Under the pieces are notes generated by a model. That model had not been told where the DNA came from and searched no databases. It saw nothing but the letters and a program-made list of their open reading frames with translations. From positions 45,769 to 109,768 of IMG/VR virus record IMGVR_UViG_3300044736_000016: DNA of 64,000 bases; one strand, given 5' to 3'. This stretch comes from a virus. Positions 4,353-50,579 of this stretch are shown here, in pieces (position 1 is the first letter of the stretch; each line of letters begins with the position of its first letter). Position numbers and translations under genes: made by a program.

Positions 4353-5441
4353 GTGAGGGTTCGCTACTACCCCGCCTCCCGCTATGACGGCTGCGCCATG
4401 TACCGTCTCGTCTTCCCTGCGACCGTCCTTGCAGCGCAGGGGCTGGACGTGGCCGAGGGGCGGCGCGAGGACATACAGGCCGTGTGGCGCCGCACTCAGG
4501 ATGGGCCGCGGGTGGCGTGGGCCGAACCGCTCGACTGCGACGTGGCTGTCTTCCAGCGGGTGTGCAGGCGTGACATCGTGGACTGCATCCCGTCTTGGCA
4601 GCGGCAGGGCACGGCGGTGGTGATGGACGTGGACGATCTGCTCTCGGCGGTCGACCCCGGCAACCCGGCGTTTGCGGCCTACCACCCGTCCAACCCAGCA
4701 GAGAACTGGCACCACCTTGAGCGGGCGTGCAGGATGGCGGACATGGTCACGGTGAGCACGCCAGCTTTGGCTGAGCGGTACGGGAGGCATGGGCGGGTCA
4801 GGGTGCTGCGAAACTGCGTGCCAGAGTGGTATCTTCGTGTGGCGGGGGCATGTCCGATGGACGGAGGGTCGCAACCTCAAGTCGTCGCGACCGCTGCTCC
4901 CGTACTTGGCTGGGCTGGACGGGTCGATGTCCACGCTGCCGACCTTGCCGTGGTTGGGACGGCCGTCGCTCAGGCACTACGGCAGACCAGCGCAACCTTC
5001 CGCGCTGTGGGGGATGAGGCCACCCTGACGGCGCTCGGGGTGCAGGGCGAGGTGGTGCCCTTCATGCCGTTCGAGGAGTACCCTGCGGAGGTGGCACGGT
5101 TGGACGTCGGGATCGCACCGCTGGCGTATACGGCGTTCAACCGCGGGAAGTCTGCCCTCAAGCCGCTCGAGATGGCCGCGCTGGGGGTGTCGTTCGTCGC
5201 CTCACCGCTGCCCGAGTACGCACGCCTGGCCGAGCTCGGTGCTGGCGACCTAGCATCCAGACCACGGCAGTGGCTCGCTGCTCTGCGCCGCCTGTTGACT
5301 GACGATGAGTACCGCGCTGAGCGTGTCGGTAGGGGGCGTGAGGTGGCCGCAGGGCTGACGTATGATGCGCACGCGGGTGGTTGGGCGGCAGTGTGGGGCG
5401 AGGCGCTGAGGGTGCGTCGGGGGGCGGCGTTGTGCCGGTGA
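4353..5441 (+). CDS. GT-B glycosyltransferase
   Basis: GTG 4353 is the first good start after the minor head stop; the protein then begins RVRYYPASRYDG. Features typical of GT4/GT1-type enzymes are visible: a VMDVDDLL segment, a VTVSTPALAERYG segment at the domain junction, and a C-terminal domain with PLAYTAFNRGKSALKPLEMAALG, the usual acidic donor-binding loop. It heads a run of five overlapping sugar-modification genes. The donor and acceptor cannot be read from sequence. Confidence 0.75.
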   Translation: MRVRYYPASRYDGCAMYRLVFPATVLAAQGLDVAEGRREDIQAVWRRTQDGPRVAWAEPLDCDVAVFQRVCRRDIVDCIPSWQRQGTAVVMDVDDLLSAVDPGNPAFAAYHPSNPAENWHHLERACRMADMVTVSTPALAERYGRHGRVRVLRNCVPEWYLRVAGACPMDGGSQPQVVATAAPVLGWAGRVDVHAADLAVVGTAVAQALRQTSATFRAVGDEATLTALGVQGEVVPFMPFEEYPAEVARLDVGIAPLAYTAFNRGKSALKPLEMAALGVSFVASPLPEYARLAELGAGDLASRPRQWLAALRRLLTDDEYRAERVGRGREVAAGLTYDAHAGGWAAVWGEALRVRRGAALCR

Positions 5442-6157
5442 CAAGGCTTGCGCACTACTATCACGCCTATCTCGCTCAAGGCTGGCGCTCCATCGTCACT
5501 GAGCATCTCGACGCCCTCACCCGCAGCGGCCTCGCCGAGCGCCTCGGCATCCTCCATCTCGGTCTCGTTGGAACCCCATCAGCGCGAGCAGCGTGTGCCC
5601 GGCTCTGTCAGGAGCGGATGCCCGTTGAGGTGACTGCCGAAGAAGACGAGGGATGGGAGCAGACGACCCTCACCGCCCTGCACCGTGCCGCAACGCAGTG
5701 GGACGCCGTCCTCTACGCCCACACCAAGGGCGTGTCCAACCCGAGGGACGAGTGGGCTGCGACGTGGCGGCGGTCGATGACGTTGGCACTCGTTGCTGGC
5801 TGGCAGGAGTGCGTGCGTTGCCTCTACACATGTGAGGCGGTGGGGTGTCACTGGCTGACACCGGGCTGGTACGACATCGTCCTCCCTCGCTACCGAGGAC
5901 GCATCGAGGTTCACGCCCCATTCTTTGGTGGCAACTTCTGGTGGGCACAGGCGTCGCTCATCCAGCGTCTCAACCCTCCCCTGAGCAACACTCGCCATGA
6001 TGCTGAGATGTGGATTGGATCTGCCCTGCCCATGCCGGTCCACGACTGCACGCCCGGGTGGCCGAACTGGTCGACGTGGCGCCTCCCTGGTGGAGTTGGT
6101 AACGAACCGGTGAGGGTTCACCTCGGCAGCGAACCTAGCCCCGTCCCGCCGCCATGA
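5438..6157 (+). CDS. Glycosyltransferase-like protein, 239 aa
   Basis: GTG 5438 overlaps the previous stop (GTGA); GTG 5432 is also in frame. Motifs such as WDAVLYAHTKGVS, a WRR...W..C helix and FFGGNFWWAQASLI followed by DAEMWIGS resemble a group of phage and capsule-locus glycosyltransferases that carry HTKG and GNFWWA signatures. It is translationally coupled on both sides, so it should act with the neighbouring enzymes. Substrate unknown. Confidence 0.65.
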   Translation: MTRLAHYYHAYLAQGWRSIVTEHLDALTRSGLAERLGILHLGLVGTPSARAACARLCQERMPVEVTAEEDEGWEQTTLTALHRAATQWDAVLYAHTKGVSNPRDEWAATWRRSMTLALVAGWQECVRCLYTCEAVGCHWLTPGWYDIVLPRYRGRIEVHAPFFGGNFWWAQASLIQRLNPPLSNTRHDAEMWIGSALPMPVHDCTPGWPNWSTWRLPGGVGNEPVRVHLGSEPSPVPPP

Positions 6158-6843
6158 TCGTCTGCGCGACCACCCTTACGCATTTCGCCATGGGTCACCC
6201 AGATATCTGGGGAGCGTGGCTGTACAACGCCGAGGCGATGCAGGCCAGTCACCCTGACGTGCGGTTCTTCTGCGCCATCGAAACGGACGCTCGCGGGCTG
6301 GCGCCGTTCGCCCCGCTGATGTCGCGCCTAGATGATGTCGGTGGGGAGTGGTGGACGTACCACCTTGACGACGGACGCAGCAAGGTGACCACGGAGAACC
6401 GCGGTCGCCATCTGGTATGCGGCCAGAACCTCGCCACCGACTACGCAACGTCCATCGGAGCGACGCACGTCGTGTTCCTCGCTGCAGACTGTGAGCCGCC
6501 ACCTGACACCATCCCCAAGCTGCTGGAGGTGAACTGGCCCATCGTCGGTGGTCACGTGCCGGGGTACTGCCTCGACGGCCCCGACGTGGTCGGCTATGAC
6601 TTCCCGGTGAAGCGCCACATGGCGACCGCGGCGTTTGTCATGCTGCAACGGTCTATCTTCCGCTCGATCCGCTGGCGCTGGGATATCGACCTTGGCCTCA
6701 CGGATGACCCATGCCTCTACTGGGATGCCAAACGACTGTACGGAGTGGACACCTACGTCCGTCATGATGTCGTGGGGCGACACTACCCCGAGGCGCTATG
6801 TGGCATCGAGGAGCGCGGGTACGACCTGAGCGTGGCGCAGTGA
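6154..6843 (+). CDS. GT-A-type glycosyltransferase, 229 aa
   Basis: ATG 6154 overlaps the upstream stop. The N-terminus (MIVCATTL) and the segment ATHVVFLAADCEPPPDTI look like the nucleotide-sugar site of a GT-A fold, where AADCE would replace the usual DxD metal motif. The later GLTDDPCLYWDAK could supply acidic catalytic residues. Third glycosyltransferase in the cassette. Confidence 0.6.
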   Translation: MIVCATTLTHFAMGHPDIWGAWLYNAEAMQASHPDVRFFCAIETDARGLAPFAPLMSRLDDVGGEWWTYHLDDGRSKVTTENRGRHLVCGQNLATDYATSIGATHVVFLAADCEPPPDTIPKLLEVNWPIVGGHVPGYCLDGPDVVGYDFPVKRHMATAAFVMLQRSIFRSIRWRWDIDLGLTDDPCLYWDAKRLYGVDTYVRHDVVGRHYPEALCGIEERGYDLSVAQ

Positions 6844-6938
6844 GACGCATCGACGCGCTGTTTCGAGCGTGGTTCTGGACACTGACCGTCATCACCGCTG
6901 CTGGCGTCGCGCTGGTGGTCTGTGCACTGCTCCAGTAA
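6840..6938 (+). CDS. 32-aa single-span membrane peptide
   Basis: GTG 6840 overlaps the upstream stop. After a short basic N-terminus (RRIDALFR) there is one hydrophobic span of about 22 residues ending at VVCALLQ. The positive N-terminus suggests N-in topology. Coupling to the glycosyltransferase suggests a membrane anchor or adaptor for that cassette (inference). Confidence 0.5.
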   Translation: MRRIDALFRAWFWTLTVITAAGVALVVCALLQ

Positions 6939-6957
6939 TACTGTTCACTGCTGCGTT

Positions 6958-7470
6958 GTGAGACTCAACGTTGGGTGCGGGGAGTGGCGAGCCGAGGGCT
7001 GGCTGAACATCGACGTGGTGCAGAACGAGCATGTAGCCTCCGACCTCGTGGCGTCGGTCACCGATCTGCCGACGCACGTCACGTGTCTCACCGCGGTGTA
7101 TTGCGGCCATGTCCTCGAACACATCCCGCATGACGCCGTCGTCCCTGCCCTGCGTGTGCTGAGGGAGCGGATGGTGCCGGGGGCGCCCATCATGTGCGTC
7201 GGGCCGGACGTACACCGCGCTGAGGCCATGTTCCGCGCTGGAGAGATCGATGAGCCGACGTGCCGATCCTGCCATGCGGAGACCCGACCGCCGCGGTGGG
7301 CTGGCGACGCCCATCACTGGGACTGCCACGAAGCCGAACTCGTCACGCTGCTCACGGAGGCGGGGTTTGTCGATGTGCATGCCGTGGACGTGGGCAGTCG
7401 CTACCTGCTGACCGAGTGGCCGCTGGTATCCGGCGTCGGCTGGCAGTGTGCCGTGGAGGGGCGACGGTGA
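6958..7470 (+). CDS. Class I SAM-dependent methyltransferase
   Basis: I chose GTG 6958, which makes the protein start VRLNVGCGEW, placing motif I (NVGCG) at residues 4-8 as in short methyltransferases of sugar-modification loci. An LNIDV motif II equivalent follows, then CGHVLEHIP, the usual strand-4 signature (xxxHVLEH). A four-cysteine/His set (CRSC...H..C) near residues 100-120 may bind zinc. Its place between glycosyltransferases and an epimerase suggests methylation of a sugar or a glycan end. Confidence 0.7.
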   Translation: MRLNVGCGEWRAEGWLNIDVVQNEHVASDLVASVTDLPTHVTCLTAVYCGHVLEHIPHDAVVPALRVLRERMVPGAPIMCVGPDVHRAEAMFRAGEIDEPTCRSCHAETRPPRWAGDAHHWDCHEAELVTLLTEAGFVDVHAVDVGSRYLLTEWPLVSGVGWQCAVEGRR

Positions 7471-44978: not shown

Positions 44979-45509
44979 TCAGCGTGCCATACCAAGATCG
45001 ACGATGCGCCAACTACCCTGCAACGTACATGTCTGCATCTGAGCGACCACGCCCGCATCGTGGGAGGGAGGAGTGTTGATCGGCTCGTCGTGGATCGCGG
45101 TGACCGTCCACGGATGTCGCATGCCTGTCGCGTCCGTGTAGGTGACCACATCGCCGACGCCCAGCAGCATCACGGGGGTAAACACGCCGAGGTTGTGGCC
45201 GACGAAGTAGGTCTGATCCGTGACGCACGTGTCGATCGCAGCCGCGGTGTCGGTCAGTTCAGTCTTTCCCGAGCAGTCGCGGTAGAGACCCACCGTGGTG
45301 TCGAGCCCGAACGGTCCGCTCAGGTGGCTACGGATGGAGACGGTCACAGGAGCGGCGGCGGCGGCCTTCGGCGAGGCGAGGAGCGCACCGCCCGCGGCCA
45401 GCATGGCCACGCCCGCAAAGGCAACGGCCAGCGTCTTAGCGCAGCGGTGACGGCGCGCTGGCGGACCACTCCACAGAGGGGCGGGGTGGATCGGCGCCTG
45501 GGTCTCCAT
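44979..45509 (-). CDS. Membrane-anchored sortase-like protein, 176 aa
   Basis: ATG 45509. An N-terminal basic stretch precedes a hydrophobic segment (about 26-52: TLAVAFAGVAMLAAGGALLA), a signal anchor. The domain then shows TYFVGHNLGVF (His105), GVGDVVTYTD, QMQTC (Cys161) and WRIVDL (Arg168): the His-Cys-Arg order and TLxTC-like motif of sortases. Cys79/Cys95 could form a disulphide. It could cross-link phage- or host-coded proteins to the cell wall. The call rests on motif order only. Confidence 0.55.
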   Translation of the reverse strand: METQAPIHPAPLWSGPPARRHRCAKTLAVAFAGVAMLAAGGALLASPKAAAAAPVTVSIRSHLSGPFGLDTTVGLYRDCSGKTELTDTAAAIDTCVTDQTYFVGHNLGVFTPVMLLGVGDVVTYTDATGMRHPWTVTAIHDEPINTPPSHDAGVVAQMQTCTLQGSWRIVDLGMAR

Positions 45510-45590
45510 GCGTCCATGGTGCGCCCGATCGGCACTCAGGCTCAGGACGGGGGTGGGTCGGGGCAGTTCCGTCACGGGCGCGTCACGCCC

Positions 45591-45645: not shown

Positions 45646-46140
45646 ATGGCTGATGGTGGCGGCATGGTCGCGGCTCACACGGCGAAGCAGTCGCACGCCT
45701 ATGTCATTCACTTCCCTCCGCATCCAGCGAGGACCGACGACCCGCACTACAAGGACTTCGACCACTACCACCGGACGACCCGTGGCGCGGCGCGTTGCTA
45801 CACGGGTGAGCGGGTCGGTTTTCAAGACTGCCGCGACGCTCAAGGCAACCCCTGCGCCATCGACGCTGCTGGTCAGCAGTCTGGCCTAGAGCTGCATCAC
45901 GCCCACGTCGAGTTCGCGCTCCAGCAGGGCATCAGCTTGGCGGCGCTCGAGCACGACTACCCCGGCATCAGCAACCCGGACGAGGTGGGGGCGTGGGTGG
46001 AGACAGCGGCTAACCTACGTTGGATCTGTGTATTCCATCATCGCACCAATGCTGGCGGCGCGCATTCCGTATCACATTCGGATTGGGAAGGCAGTCTGTA
46101 CGTTCGCGGGTTGACCGGAGACGTAGCGCCCAAGCCATGA
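45646..46140 (+). CDS. HNH endonuclease, 164 aa
   Basis: LELHHAHVEF (His84/His85), NLRWICVFHHR (Asn123, His131/His132) and Cys51/Cys62/Cys70 give an HNH nuclease core with extra cysteines. Small HNH proteins of this type are frequent in actinophages, either near terminase (packaging) or as free-standing homing enzymes. Here it leads the operon of membrane proteins. Confidence 0.7.
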   Translation: MADGGGMVAAHTAKQSHAYVIHFPPHPARTDDPHYKDFDHYHRTTRGAARCYTGERVGFQDCRDAQGNPCAIDAAGQQSGLELHHAHVEFALQQGISLAALEHDYPGISNPDEVGAWVETAANLRWICVFHHRTNAGGAHSVSHSDWEGSLYVRGLTGDVAPKP

Positions 46141-46454
46141 GCGCCAAGATCGTCGCAGGCAGCGATGGTGGGCAGAGAGGGATCGGGATGCCGCTCACGG
46201 ATGACGAAGGCAGGGAGTTGCTCGCGACCGTACGTACCCTGAGCGCTCGGCTCGATCAGTCCTTCGCCGACTTCAAGATGGAGGAGATCCCCAAGCGGCA
46301 TAAGGCCAACCTTCCCTCCGTCCTCGACTGGTGGGATGGGCGTGCCGACCGAGGTGAGAAGTCGCGGTATCTCCTACCGCTCCTTGTGACGGCCATCTGC
46401 CCCGTCATCGGCGGTGTCATCGTGGCCATCATCCTCAAGGCGCTCCACCTGTGA
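46137..46454 (+). CDS. Tail-anchored membrane protein, 105 aa
   Basis: ATG 46137 overlaps the HNH stop. A soluble N-terminal part with a helix (DEGRELLATVRTLSARLDQSFADF) is followed by one C-terminal membrane span (YLLPLLVTAICPVIGGVIVAIIL). The piece SVLDWWDGRADRGEKSRYLLP recurs in altered form in the PAS protein downstream (SLLTWWGRM...). Start of a four-gene membrane cassette. Confidence 0.6.
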   Translation: MSAKIVAGSDGGQRGIGMPLTDDEGRELLATVRTLSARLDQSFADFKMEEIPKRHKANLPSVLDWWDGRADRGEKSRYLLPLLVTAICPVIGGVIVAIILKALHL

Positions 46455-46855
46455 TGAACAAGTCGCCACTGCGGGGTATGCCGTTCCTGCTCAAGGTCTA
46501 TTACCACAAGATAGAACTGCTCTCGCTTTTGTTCACCATTCTGCTCGTCGTCGTCTTTTACATCTTGGCTCAGGAGGTGGTCGAGACGAGGCGGCAGGCT
46601 GGGGTCATCGCCGCCCAAGGTGTGCAGCAGAGGAAGGTGATGGAAGATGAGATCAGGTTCAACCGGTTCCTCATCGACAGAGAGACGGCGCGGACGGGGT
46701 CTGGCGGGCGGCAGGGACTCATCGACCAAGCCAACCTAGACAGGGCAGAGCTACGGCGGTTAGAGGCCGCGCTACGGGCCGCTGGGGTACGGCTGCCGCC
46801 CTCTGACGTGCTCGAGGGGCATCCTGCCAACCCGCCCCAACATGCACCGCCATGA
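46451..46855 (+). CDS. N-anchored membrane protein, 134 aa
   Basis: GTG 46451 or ATG 46454, overlapping the previous stop. One membrane span near residues 23-42 (LLSLLFTILLVVVFYILA) and then a charged coiled helix (VVETRRQAGVIAAQGVQQRK), ending Pro-rich. Its topology is opposite to that of its neighbours, which suggests a complex built in the membrane. Confidence 0.6.
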   Translation: MMNKSPLRGMPFLLKVYYHKIELLSLLFTILLVVVFYILAQEVVETRRQAGVIAAQGVQQRKVMEDEIRFNRFLIDRETARTGSGGRQGLIDQANLDRAELRRLEAALRAAGVRLPPSDVLEGHPANPPQHAPP

Positions 46856-48066
46856 GTGCCCAAATCGTCGCTGACACTGACGGGCGCGTGATCTCGTGGG
46901 ACGCTGAGGCAGCGCGGCTCTTGGGGTATCCGGCGGACGAGGTTGTCGGGCGTCTGCTCGGAGAGACGATCGTCCCCCCACAGCATCGTGACCAGTACGA
47001 CCGTGGGCTGGATGACTTCCGAAAGACGGGCGCAGTGCGTTCGCTCGGGATGCGCTTGCAGGTTGATGCACTGCGCAAGGACGGCACCGTGATCCCGATC
47101 GACTTGCGGCTGACGAAACTCTCGGCCGATCCGCCAACTCTGCTCGTGCTCATCGACCCGCGAGCACCAGCCGACCAACCCGACCCATACACCGGCACCG
47201 AGCACCGTGACTACGCAGCAGACACCGAGGCAGCCCGTGCTGGTCGTGCTGAGGCGCTGGCTGGTGGTGTGACAGAGGTTGCGGCAGAGGTCGAGGCAGA
47301 GCGGGTGCAGCGCGCCAAGGGGCTCGCCGCTCAGTCTGAGCACAACGTTGCGGTGGCCGCCGCAGACGTGGAAGCGGAGCGACTGAGGATTGCTGCAAGT
47401 CTGGCCACGCAGTCCGCCCTGGGCGCTGCCTCGGCTGCTTCGATCTTGGAGGAGGAGCGCATCAAACGTGCAGTCGCCCTGGCTCTCGAATCCATCCGCG
47501 AGACGTCTGCCACGGCCGCCGGAGTTGAGGCAGAGCGGATCCACCGCGCCGAGACCTTGGCGGATCGTTCGGCACGGGGCGTGTCATCGGCAGCAGCAGA
47601 CGTCGAGGAGGGCCGGGTAGAACGAGCCACGAAGCTCGCCGTCGAGGTGGAGCGTGCGAAGCTGAAAGCGGAGGGCGTGGCTGTGGCGGTGAACGGACTT
47701 ACCACAGAGGTAACCGAACTACGAGGCGCCGCCGTGCGGATGGAAACGGCAGTACGGGAAATGAGCAGCCATCTTTCCGAGGTACTGAAGGCGACCGAAG
47801 CGCTGCACACCGGGTACGGCGTTGACGAGAGCACCATGACGGACCGCTCGCGATTTCCATCCCTGCTGACATGGTGGGGGCGGATGACGACGGAGATCGT
47901 CCCAGGTACAGGCAAGACGCGGCTGGCGATATTCGATGAGGTGATCGCCCAGCGCGCGAGCCGTATGCACGTCTCTACAAGCGGGCTCAAGGTGTTCGCC
48001 ATCCTCACCCCATTCCTGTGCATCATCATCGGCGCAATTCTCACGTTTCTGCTCACTCGAAAATGA
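46852..48066 (+). CDS. PAS-domain, coiled-coil, tail-anchored protein, 404 aa
   Basis: ATG 46852 overlaps the previous stop. Residues 4-104 are a PAS domain (IVADTDGRVISWDAEAARLLGY; EVVGRLLGETIVPPQHR; RKDGTVIPIDLRLTKL). Residues about 147-275 are five repeats of a 26-residue helical unit (VEAERxxRAxxLAxxS...). One membrane span ends the protein (about 380-402). No kinase, GGDEF or HTH domain follows. It looks like a sensor with its signalling part replaced by a rod and a membrane anchor. A phage-coded protein of this form is unusual. Confidence 0.7.
   Translation: MSAQIVADTDGRVISWDAEAARLLGYPADEVVGRLLGETIVPPQHRDQYDRGLDDFRKTGAVRSLGMRLQVDALRKDGTVIPIDLRLTKLSADPPTLLVLIDPRAPADQPDPYTGTEHRDYAADTEAARAGRAEALAGGVTEVAAEVEAERVQRAKGLAAQSEHNVAVAAADVEAERLRIAASLATQSALGAASAASILEEERIKRAVALALESIRETSATAAGVEAERIHRAETLADRSARGVSSAAADVEEGRVERATKLAVEVERAKLKAEGVAVAVNGLTTEVTELRGAAVRMETAVREMSSHLSEVLKATEALHTGYGVDESTMTDRSRFPSLLTWWGRMTTEIVPGTGKTRLAIFDEVIAQRASRMHVSTSGLKVFAILTPFLCIIIGAILTFLLTRK
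47290..47670 (+). repeat. Five 26-residue helical repeats
   Basis: Units begin at residues 147, 173, 199, 225 and 251 with V/L-E-A/E-E/G-R; the first four are exactly 26 residues. The strict period points to a continuous rod. Confidence 0.75.
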
Positions 48067-48686
48067 CGACCTTACGCAGGATCTGGCAGTGGGCGTGGGG
48101 CTTGCGCCTCTATATCCTCGCTGCCTTGTTTGTAGCCCTAGTCATCGCCATGGCCGCATCGCTCGTGGGCTACGGGCAGCGACAGAACAGGCAGGATGCG
48201 CAGAGAGACCGAGACGAGGCTGCCGCGCGGGCGCAGATCGTCCGAATCACCGCAGACGAGGCGACGATCCAGACATTGGTCGACCAGAATCGAAGGTCAA
48301 TCAACAACAACTCGGCCATGCTCGGGACCAGCAGGCTGGACATCAGCGATCTGCGCGCCATCATCGCGCAGACCAAGGACGAGGTCGTGCGCCAGCTCGA
48401 TGGGCTCCCCAGCGTCGGGTTGCCTACGCCGACTGACACCGTGGCTGCCAAGCTCATCGCGCTGCTGGACCGTCTGGACAAGCTCGACGCGATCGTGGCA
48501 CGCCTCGATGCCCGCGTGGCCGCACTGGAGGCAGCCGCGTCCTCGGCTAGTGGCGAGCCCCGTCCCACGCCGACGGGAACGCCAGCACGCTCTCCACGGG
48601 CAGAGCCCGGACCACGCCCTGCGCCAGCGCCAGAGGAGCACTGCATCGTCCAGCATGTCGCTTTCTGTGCCAGCGCGAAGCCGTGA
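48063..48686 (+). CDS. N-anchored coiled-coil membrane protein, 207 aa
   Basis: ATG 48063 overlaps the PAS gene stop. One membrane span (LYILAALFVALVIAMAASLVGY), long coiled coil (about 40-175) and a Pro-rich end with two cysteines (HCIVQHVAFCAS). It ends the four-gene cassette. It may pair with the PAS protein through the coiled coils. A spanin-like role is possible but a Gram-positive host would not need one. Confidence 0.6.
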   Translation: MTTLRRIWQWAWGLRLYILAALFVALVIAMAASLVGYGQRQNRQDAQRDRDEAAARAQIVRITADEATIQTLVDQNRRSINNNSAMLGTSRLDISDLRAIIAQTKDEVVRQLDGLPSVGLPTPTDTVAAKLIALLDRLDKLDAIVARLDARVAALEAAASSASGEPRPTPTGTPARSPRAEPGPRPAPAPEEHCIVQHVAFCASAKP

Positions 48687-48868: not shown

Positions 48869-49111
48869 ATGGGGACACTGAATCCGAAGGTGAAGGGACA
48901 GACGATCGCGCACCTTGCCGTATGGACGGCGGCCACTCTTGGGATGGCATGGCTGCAGGGCGGCAAGGCGGCGATGCTCACGGCTGGGACTGGGCTTGTC
49001 GCTACGCTCATGGGGTTCGGTACGGGCTACCAGATCTCCTCGCCTGAGCCTGCAGCGAGTACGATCGCACTGCCGAGCGGCGGGTCGATCACCGAGGTTC
49101 CGCCGGGTTGA
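48869..49111 (+). CDS. Holin-like membrane protein, 80 aa
   Basis: ATG 48869 follows CGGAGGGCGGG; GTG 48830 is also possible. Two hydrophobic segments (TIAHLAVWTAATLGMAWL and AAMLTAGTGLVATLMGFGTGY) separated by a short basic loop, then a polar tail, fit a class II holin. It lies upstream of a peptidase-type lysin. Confidence 0.5.
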   Translation: MGTLNPKVKGQTIAHLAVWTAATLGMAWLQGGKAAMLTAGTGLVATLMGFGTGYQISSPEPAASTIALPSGGSITEVPPG

Positions 49112-49119
49112 TGAGTACG

Positions 49120-49782
49120 CTACGAGCGTCGACAGTCAGCGCACCACCTGAGCTTGCTGGTGCCCTGACCGTTGGGCTTGAACTTGGCGCCGCAGCCCTC
49201 GCAGAAATAGTCCGGATGCCGCCGACCGGAGGCATTGCGCTCGCGCAGGGCGCTGAGCCGTCCGTCCTCCTCCATATGGCAGCGTCGGCACCGCCAGACG
49301 ACATTCGATGGAGAGTTGTCGAGGGTGTTTCCGTTCTTGTGGTGCCGATCGATGGCGCGTGCCCCGCAAGCACACACTGGCTCGACGTCTCGGTACAGCC
49401 TTCGTGCTCGCTGGTGTCCAGCGGGCATGGGATGCACGGGTATTCGCTTGCGGGGACGCGGACCAGCCAGATAACAGGCGCGGCACTTGACAGCAGAACG
49501 GCTAGTGAGAGGAGAGCCGCAGGCGCAGAAATGGTCTGCTGGCCTCCAGTAGGGTCTTTCGGGGGCCACGGGGCGGGCAGCCACGGCACAGGCGCGGCAC
49601 CGATTAGCCTGCCGGGTGATCGGTTTCCCACAAGCACACCGACGTGTCGGGTGCTGGGCGGATCGTTCGGCCAGCCGCTGCCTACGCAACTCGTGGTAGC
49701 AGGCACTGCATCGTTCGGTTGTCAAGCGTCGGGTACGCAACGGATCACCACAGTCGATGCAGTGCCTGACTGTTCTAGCCAT
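49120..49782 (-). CDS. HNH endonuclease with multiple zinc ribbons, 220 aa
   Basis: ATG 49782. Up to six CxxC/CxC pairs line the sequence (CIDC...CSAC; CACG...CRAC; CACG...CRAC; CEGC...CADC), and the core IDRHHKNGNTLDNSPSNVVWRCRRCH gives His147/148, Asn160 and His169 of an HNH nuclease. Free-standing, on the opposite strand, between holin-like and lysin genes: a typical mobile homing-type endonuclease. Confidence 0.75.
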   Translation of the reverse strand: MARTVRHCIDCGDPLRTRRLTTERCSACYHELRRQRLAERSAQHPTRRCACGKPITRQANRCRACAVAARPVAPERPYWRPADHFCACGSPLTSRSAVKCRACYLAGPRPRKRIPVHPMPAGHQRARRLYRDVEPVCACGARAIDRHHKNGNTLDNSPSNVVWRCRRCHMEEDGRLSALRERNASGRRHPDYFCEGCGAKFKPNGQGTSKLRWCADCRRS

Positions 49783-49799
49783 GAAGGGATGGTACCACT

Positions 49800-50579
49800 T
49801 TGAGTGTGCTGCAACCCGCACTACTAACATGGCTGCAATTTTCAGAGCCTGGACCGGATCATTCCGAAAGTTGCGGGCAAAATGCAACCGCCTCGGCCCT
49901 CATCGGCGGTGGCCATCTTCCACCTAACGGCAACGCTCCTATTACAGTGGATCGGTGGATGCAAGCGCAAGGCTATCCTGGCCTGTCGACCCAAGGCACG
50001 CAGACGAACTGGCTACAGGACGTCTTGGAACACTTTGGCGGCACTCGTGGCCACGACCACGGTAACAACTTCGACGCCATTGTTCGCACGCTGGGCGCAG
50101 GTCGCTATGCCATCGTTCTGGTTGGCTCCGATCACGTAGGGCATCCAGTACCCAACAACCAAGCCGTCACGGGGCACTGGGTCGCAGTCTATGGATACGA
50201 CGGCACCAACTACCACATCGCCAACAGCGGCTCGGGTCGAGTCGAGGCGTACACCACAGGATATTTCCGGAGCGCGTACCGCGGCATCACGCTCGACACC
50301 GGGATCACGCCGACAGCGAACGAGGAGAGTGGACCGATGACGCAGGATGAGGCGCGCGCCGTCACATACGCCCTGGTAGGGCTGGGGCTCGGTGAGGGCG
50401 CCGACACTCCGGGCATCGGTGCCCAGATCGAGGCGTATGCCACGCCTATGACAGCGAACGTTGAGGGCGCTATCTCGACGCTGATCTCGGACATGCGCAA
50501 GAACCCCGGCTACGTGTGGAACGTCGTGAAGGCGCTGCAGAGTGATGTCGCCAGCCTGAAACAACACGCCGGCATCTAG
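49800..50579 (+). CDS. C39-like cysteine peptidase, probable endolysin, 259 aa
   Basis: TTG 49800 gives MSVLQPALL; GTG 49806 is another option. ESCGQNATASALI has the nucleophile Cys25 of papain-like C39 peptidases; TGHWVAVYGYDGTNYHIANSG supplies His126 and Asn142. A C-terminal helical part (about 180-259) may bind the wall. The peptidase would cut peptide bridges of peptidoglycan; a holin-like gene is upstream. Confidence 0.65.
   Translation: MSVLQPALLTWLQFSEPGPDHSESCGQNATASALIGGGHLPPNGNAPITVDRWMQAQGYPGLSTQGTQTNWLQDVLEHFGGTRGHDHGNNFDAIVRTLGAGRYAIVLVGSDHVGHPVPNNQAVTGHWVAVYGYDGTNYHIANSGSGRVEAYTTGYFRSAYRGITLDTGITPTANEESGPMTQDEARAVTYALVGLGLGEGADTPGIGAQIEAYATPMTANVEGAISTLISDMRKNPGYVWNVVKALQSDVASLKQHAGI

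Follow-up and report, generated by a model that had tools for sequence, protein, structure and literature searches.

Four overlapping genes for membrane proteins

The window analysed in this study is a stretch of 64,000 nucleotides from the IMG/VR virus record IMGVR_UViG_3300044736_000016, of which it covers positions 45769-109768 (the record is 109,768 bases long). At positions 46137-48686 of the window we found a compact set of four genes, here called A to D, each encoding a membrane protein; one of the products, protein C, joins a PAS domain to a repetitive, predicted helical rod and a membrane anchor. The four genes lie on the same (plus) strand and neighbours overlap head to tail by 1-4 bases. 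The junctions read TGATG between A and B, and ATGA between B and C, between C and D, and also between A and the open reading frame (ORF) that precedes it.

Each protein has one transmembrane segment on the Kyte-Doolittle scale, placed at the C-terminal end in A and C and at the N-terminal end in B and D. Gene A (46137..46454, +) encodes 105 residues, with the segment at residues 82-100, and gene B (46454..46855, +) 133 residues, with the segment at residues 20-38 and a helical, charged C-terminal part. Gene C (46852..48066, +) is by far the longest, with 404 residues anchored through residues 383-401 (47998..48054, +). Gene D (48063..48686, +) encodes 207 residues, with its segment at residues 18-36 and a proline-rich C-terminal part that is coiled-coil-like. 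Codon usage supports coding for all four genes: in their own frames the log-odds are 0.26 (A), 0.09 (B), 0.085 (C) and 0.11 (D) bits per codon, the signal being weak for B and C, while the other five frames are all negative. Altogether, frames, junctions, codon signal and transmembrane segments confirm the first-pass annotation, made from the sequence alone, in its claim of four overlapping membrane-protein genes with anchors at alternating ends.

The PAS domain, rod and anchor of protein C

The PAS assignment, also made in that annotation, was submitted to a profile search that had been set beforehand as its test, and it passed. Indeed, C matches PF00989 of Pfam with an E value of 2.3e-12 (47.3 bits against a cut-off of 22.6) and the sensory box family TIGR00229 of NCBIfam with 39.7 bits against a cut-off of 22.9. 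The structural model of C, built from an alignment of three sequences, has a mean predicted local distance difference test score (pLDDT) of 63.6, and its PAS part is good, with values mostly at 77-91, ten-residue blocks at 72-91 and one block at 62. Residues 1-104 of the model (46852..47163, +) match PAS structures, the heme PAS domains of FixL being the top matches in Foldseek with target-normalised TM-scores of 0.67-0.81 (single-domain FixL chains against the C model). A VIA comparison gave Z scores up to 16.8 over about 100 residues; it ranked ARNT PAS-B first, and the absence of FixL among the 50 matches listed says nothing against FixL. By sequence, the nearest solved structure in the PDB is again FixL (E 1.5e-10).

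While the PAS domain of C thus shares its fold with the heme PAS domains of FixL and DosP, it differs from them in its pocket and in what follows it. Tyr49 of C aligns with the histidine that we take to be the proximal heme ligand of FixL, and Leu69 with the distal arginine position. Because of these two residues a FixL-like heme in C is unlikely, and FixL-like heme sensing was rejected on the ligand rule, histidine being expected where C has Tyr49. Hence the idea of redox sensing is weakened in its simplest form. Furthermore, C has neither a kinase nor a cyclase/phosphodiesterase domain of the FixL or DosP kind: the Pfam scan of C gave no kinase family, and the whole-protein FixL and DosP models of NCBIfam match the PAS part alone, far below cut-off. 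No DNA-binding family appeared in the Pfam, PHROG or NCBIfam scans of C, whose C-terminal end holds the transmembrane segment instead, and the family scans as a whole gave no known output domain. The PAS domain of C is the only one found in the complete record.

Between the PAS domain and the anchor, the model of C shows a helical rod of about 190 residues (residues 126-319; 47227..47808, +), made of two helices (126-242 and 251-319) separated by a break at 243-250; a further helix spans residues 378-403. The predicted rod helix is of low confidence. The rod holds about 5-6 repeats of 26 residues: the score at lag 26 is 0.75, against a maximum of 0.41 in 1000 shuffles (best of lags 7-59). The first-pass annotation had described a coiled rod of 26 residues, which is correct for the repeat and not for the length of the rod. 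We found no support for a right-handed coiled coil, as 26/7 would give 3.71 residues per turn and the hydrophobic peak is at 3.58, and Pfam coiled-coil matches were set aside as support.

Proteins A and C resemble each other at both ends. Eight of their first 11 residues are identical (24 of 33 bases; shuffle P ~0.0002), and the juxtamembrane segment ending in two tryptophans, SVLDWW in A (46317..46334, +) and SLLTWW in C (47860..47877, +), is common to both (shuffle P 0.0015). The common origin of A and C that had been read from the tryptophan segment is thus supported, and A looks like a partial paralogue of C that lacks the PAS core and the rod. The likeness of B and D is unconvincing (shuffle P 0.028 for the whole proteins and 0.075 without the transmembrane segments); of a two-module duplication (A-B and C-D), therefore, the A/C half is supported and the B/D half is not.

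Genomic setting and comparable sets in other phages

The window encodes a portal protein, a capsid protein of phrog_1005, a tape measure protein, tail proteins, a repressor-like regulator and an integrase, the last two at its end. From these genes the phage looks temperate and tailed. The relatives listed for its capsid and tail proteins belong to phages of Microbacterium, Arthrobacter, Rhodococcus, Streptomyces and others, at less than 60% identity. A sister contig (G001) encodes a capsid protein that is 100% identical to that of the window, and stops near window position ~35 kb, short of A-D; the DNA around its capsid gene is only ~90% identical to the window. Scans with the tail proteins led nowhere. 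In record L005, a reading frame that is presumably terminase-like appears split in two frames (4832-5659 and 6117-7094), for which an intron, an insertion or a frameshift is possible.

Genes A-D adjoin the tail hub and tail genes and lie between these and putative lysis genes. Downstream of D are a small hydrophobic protein of 80 residues (48869..49111, +), a holin candidate with no family match, and a C39-like cysteine-peptidase frame (49842..50579, +), an endolysin candidate (PF14399 E 0.00088; PF13529 E 0.0065). Around A-D there are two promoter-like signals (1.1±1.2 by chance) and one terminator-like signal (3.3±2.2 by chance), so the set has no promoter or terminator signal of its own beyond chance, which fits a single late transcript with the tail genes. 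Together with the distal position in the tail module and the overlap of A with the preceding late-strand frame, this points to late expression. An assignment of that preceding ORF as an HNH endonuclease was not supported, as it has no family, PDB or phage match and is unlike the HNH protein of Jflix2. Two frames on the minus strand are also of note: 44979-45515 encodes a secreted-looking protein with a His/Cys/Arg arrangement that we take to be sortase-like (Pfam gave nothing above cut-off, and NCBIfam had no match), and 49120-49842 is an antisense frame among the putative lysis genes that matches HNH_3 weakly (E 0.012).

Pattern scans of the IMG/VR viral contigs gave 17 matches for C and 20 for A, none of them relatives, and none of the 389 matches for C in genome contigs is a relative. 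Similarly, nothing convincing came from tblastn searches of 50,697 GenBank phage records with A-D or with the PAS domain by itself. A scan with the PAS alignment found a 66-kb phage contig (L021, IMG/VR 3300046517_001051), and a further scan a second one (L025, 3300046559_000062); both belong to one other phage group. In each, ATGA is shared by a coiled-coil gene and the PAS-only gene after it, and the next gene, for a membrane protein, overlaps the PAS gene by 1 base. The transmembrane segment of the coil protein is seen in L021 alone, the contig end leaving only its last 38 residues in L025. The pairing of a PAS gene with an overlapping upstream coil gene thus recurs in another phage group. 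In L021 the set is tail-distal, with tail genes ahead of it and fibre-like genes behind it. Identity between the PAS proteins of L021 and L025 is 81-82% (82% over 125 codons), with a dN of 0.17 and a dS of 1.32 (near saturation), a purifying-type ratio, and their PAS domains, FixL-like as in C, keep the histidine at the FixL heme position. Unlike C, these PAS proteins have neither rod nor anchor, and their partners are not similar in sequence to those of A-D. The model of the L021 PAS protein is poor (mean pLDDT 56) and was not used for fold searches. Next to the PAS set of L025, a frame at 1138-1521 has a lipobox-like LPSC and a hydrophobic stretch at its C-terminal end.

A structure search of BFVD with C gave 14 matches at E <=0.001, including giant-virus and phage kinases, and also short PAS-like proteins of Caudovirales, several of them output-less. 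The first-pass view that a PAS domain with no output domain is unusual in phages is thereby modified: no known output domain was found in C, but C is not unique in this respect. Among the weaker matches are proteins of the Cellulophaga phages phi19:1 (240 residues, E 0.0029) and phi18:3 (172 residues, E 0.020). By length they correspond to gp108 and gp090, respectively, there being one coding sequence of each length in the full gene tables (118 and 123 features, read by eye). In both, an N-terminal transmembrane-like segment (marked by Kyte-Doolittle in gp090 only and read from the sequence in gp108) is followed by a helix or coil and, at the C-terminal end, by the PAS-like part. Their PHROG families, phrog_10199 and phrog_31932, match each other, and members of the family were found by tblastn in Cellulophaga phages (7 and 24 records); no sequence similarity to C was detected. 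In six of the seven records inspected (phi18:3, phi19:1, Ingeline_1, phi38:2, Nekkels_1, phi10:1 and phi13:2), an endolysin, a lysozyme or an L-alanoyl-D-glutamate peptidase is annotated 1-5 genes downstream; the exception is Ingeline_1, with no annotated lysis enzyme and only a DUF5675 protein. After the endolysin, phi38:2 (4156-4708 of L036) and phi13:2 (4800-5352 of L039) have overlapping, spanin-like gene pairs, an N-anchored coil and a coil with a lipobox-like start and KKWW(D/N)GFGKG before a C-terminal transmembrane segment; the tryptophan-rich end of this second coil resembles A and C.

Possible roles of the set

We propose, tentatively and short of an even chance, that A-D are a late-expressed membrane sensor or scaffold set that closes the tail module next to the putative lysis genes, and that it perhaps times lysis. 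A membrane-anchored sensor-type domain next to candidate holin and endolysin genes suggests a component of lysis timing or of a lysis complex. Residue counts interpreted by hand with the positive-inside rule would place the N-termini of B and D inside and their coils outside, whereas C and A, which show no signal peptide, should lie in the cytoplasm and be anchored at the C-terminal end. C would then be tail-anchored, its PAS domain most likely in the cytoplasm and kept off the membrane by the long rod. Dimers of the PAS domain, through the rod, might pass a change in cell state (a small ligand or redox) or the binding of a partner to the tryptophan segment and transmembrane helix, which could thereby promote or delay lysis by the neighbouring membrane protein. 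A, with the very start, the juxtamembrane segment and the transmembrane part of C, may act as a version with no PAS domain that competes with C for its place at the membrane, and B and D may be partners with coils on the outer face.

Several observations weigh against this proposal. The orientation is one that we infer, because the transmembrane segment of C is flanked by positive charge on both sides (net +3 and +2), and in D four Lys/Arg follow the segment against three that precede it (net +1 against +3). The set was said to lie directly before lysis genes, and a small membrane protein and a C39-like frame do follow, but their naming is itself inferential, as neither reaches a family cut-off. 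A direct relative of the whole A-D set, which would speak for its conservation as a unit, was not found in our searches. No endolysin was recognised beside the PAS gene in L021 or L025. By the positive-inside rule the L021 coil is oriented opposite to B and D, neither of which has similarity to it; this coil was rejected as a homologue of B, D or the rod (P 0.58, 0.77 and 0.26, respectively). In the Cellulophaga proteins no PAS domain is seen in profile searches, structure alone making them PAS-like, and the PAS-like part is probably outside the membrane, while that of C would be inside. Given this opposite side they may be merely analogous to C; we regard them as a lead rather than as members.

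Two other explanations seem unlikely to us, and equally so. A-D could be a lysogeny or superinfection-exclusion cassette, in which membrane proteins made by the prophage block later phages and the PAS domain senses or sequesters something. The phage looks temperate, and genes for membrane proteins of this kind often sit where late modules end, but the set lacks promoter or terminator signals of its own beyond chance, A overlaps a late-strand frame, and PADLOC gave no match of note (LmuB at E 0.0041 and 0.074, in coiled-coil regions only, was rejected as support). Alternatively, A-D could be a lysis scaffold with no sensing, the PAS domain serving for dimerisation only, for which it is a common fold, and B and D resembling inner-membrane spanins or holin partners. 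D does match Rz-like spanin families weakly (phrog_1026, E 0.087; phrog_89, E 0.57), but these matches are at chance level and were discarded as support; no outer-membrane lipoprotein partner was recognised, no systematic lipobox scan having been made, and spanins would be unnecessary in a monoderm host.

Slightly less probable is a role in the virion or in DNA entry, with anchors and rods carried in the particle and inserted into the host membrane at infection. It would suit the adjoining tail genes and the place of the L021 set between tail and fibre genes, but we know of no precedent for a FixL-like PAS domain in a structural ejection protein, and the predicted helix is of low confidence. 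Finally, a host PAS fragment captured recently and with no phage role, as might be read from the absence of PF00989 in all 14 records of the sister phage and of phages related in capsid or tail, distantly in part and several of them fragments (a fifteenth, that of L025, is positive), is very improbable in view of the own-frame codon signal, the preserved overlaps, the A/C duplication and the purifying-type dN/dS of the comparable L021/L025 gene.

Turning to known systems, VqmA, a PAS protein with a DNA-binding domain, differs from C, which is anchored in the membrane and in which no output domain was recognised. We know of no PAS domain in the antiholin RI or the holin T of phage T4. VqmA of phage VP882 and its relatives is a sensor encoded by the phage itself, a quorum-sensing receptor that phages use to decide on lysis (PMC8284805, PMC12802170). 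RI and T are described as a pair of small membrane-linked proteins that can set lysis time on a signal (PMC11413866), a likeness to A-D by function only. Neither system is a relative of A-D in architecture. In our search of the open-licence literature we found no paper describing PAS proteins in phage lysis modules. The A-D set puts a genuine PAS domain into a context that is new for phages.

A broader reading, which we regard as doubtful, is that PAS proteins linked to the membrane and lacking an output domain form a class of lysis-module sensors that recurs among phages and has so far gone undescribed. The class would occur in at least three phage groups unrelated to one another and would couple lysis timing to a chemical state of the cell as it dies, or of its membrane. 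The groups would be the phage of the window (PAS, rod and anchor), L021/L025 (a coil gene with a soluble PAS gene) and the Cellulophaga phages (transmembrane-like segment, coil and PAS-like part in one chain, just upstream of an endolysin). The cue for lysis timing is known for few phages, T4 lysis inhibition being the standard example. If the proposal for A-D is true, a membrane sensor domain beside lysis genes would be a directly testable input to lysis timing outside the model phages; named host strains exist for the Cellulophaga phages, which makes these a system in which to try the idea.

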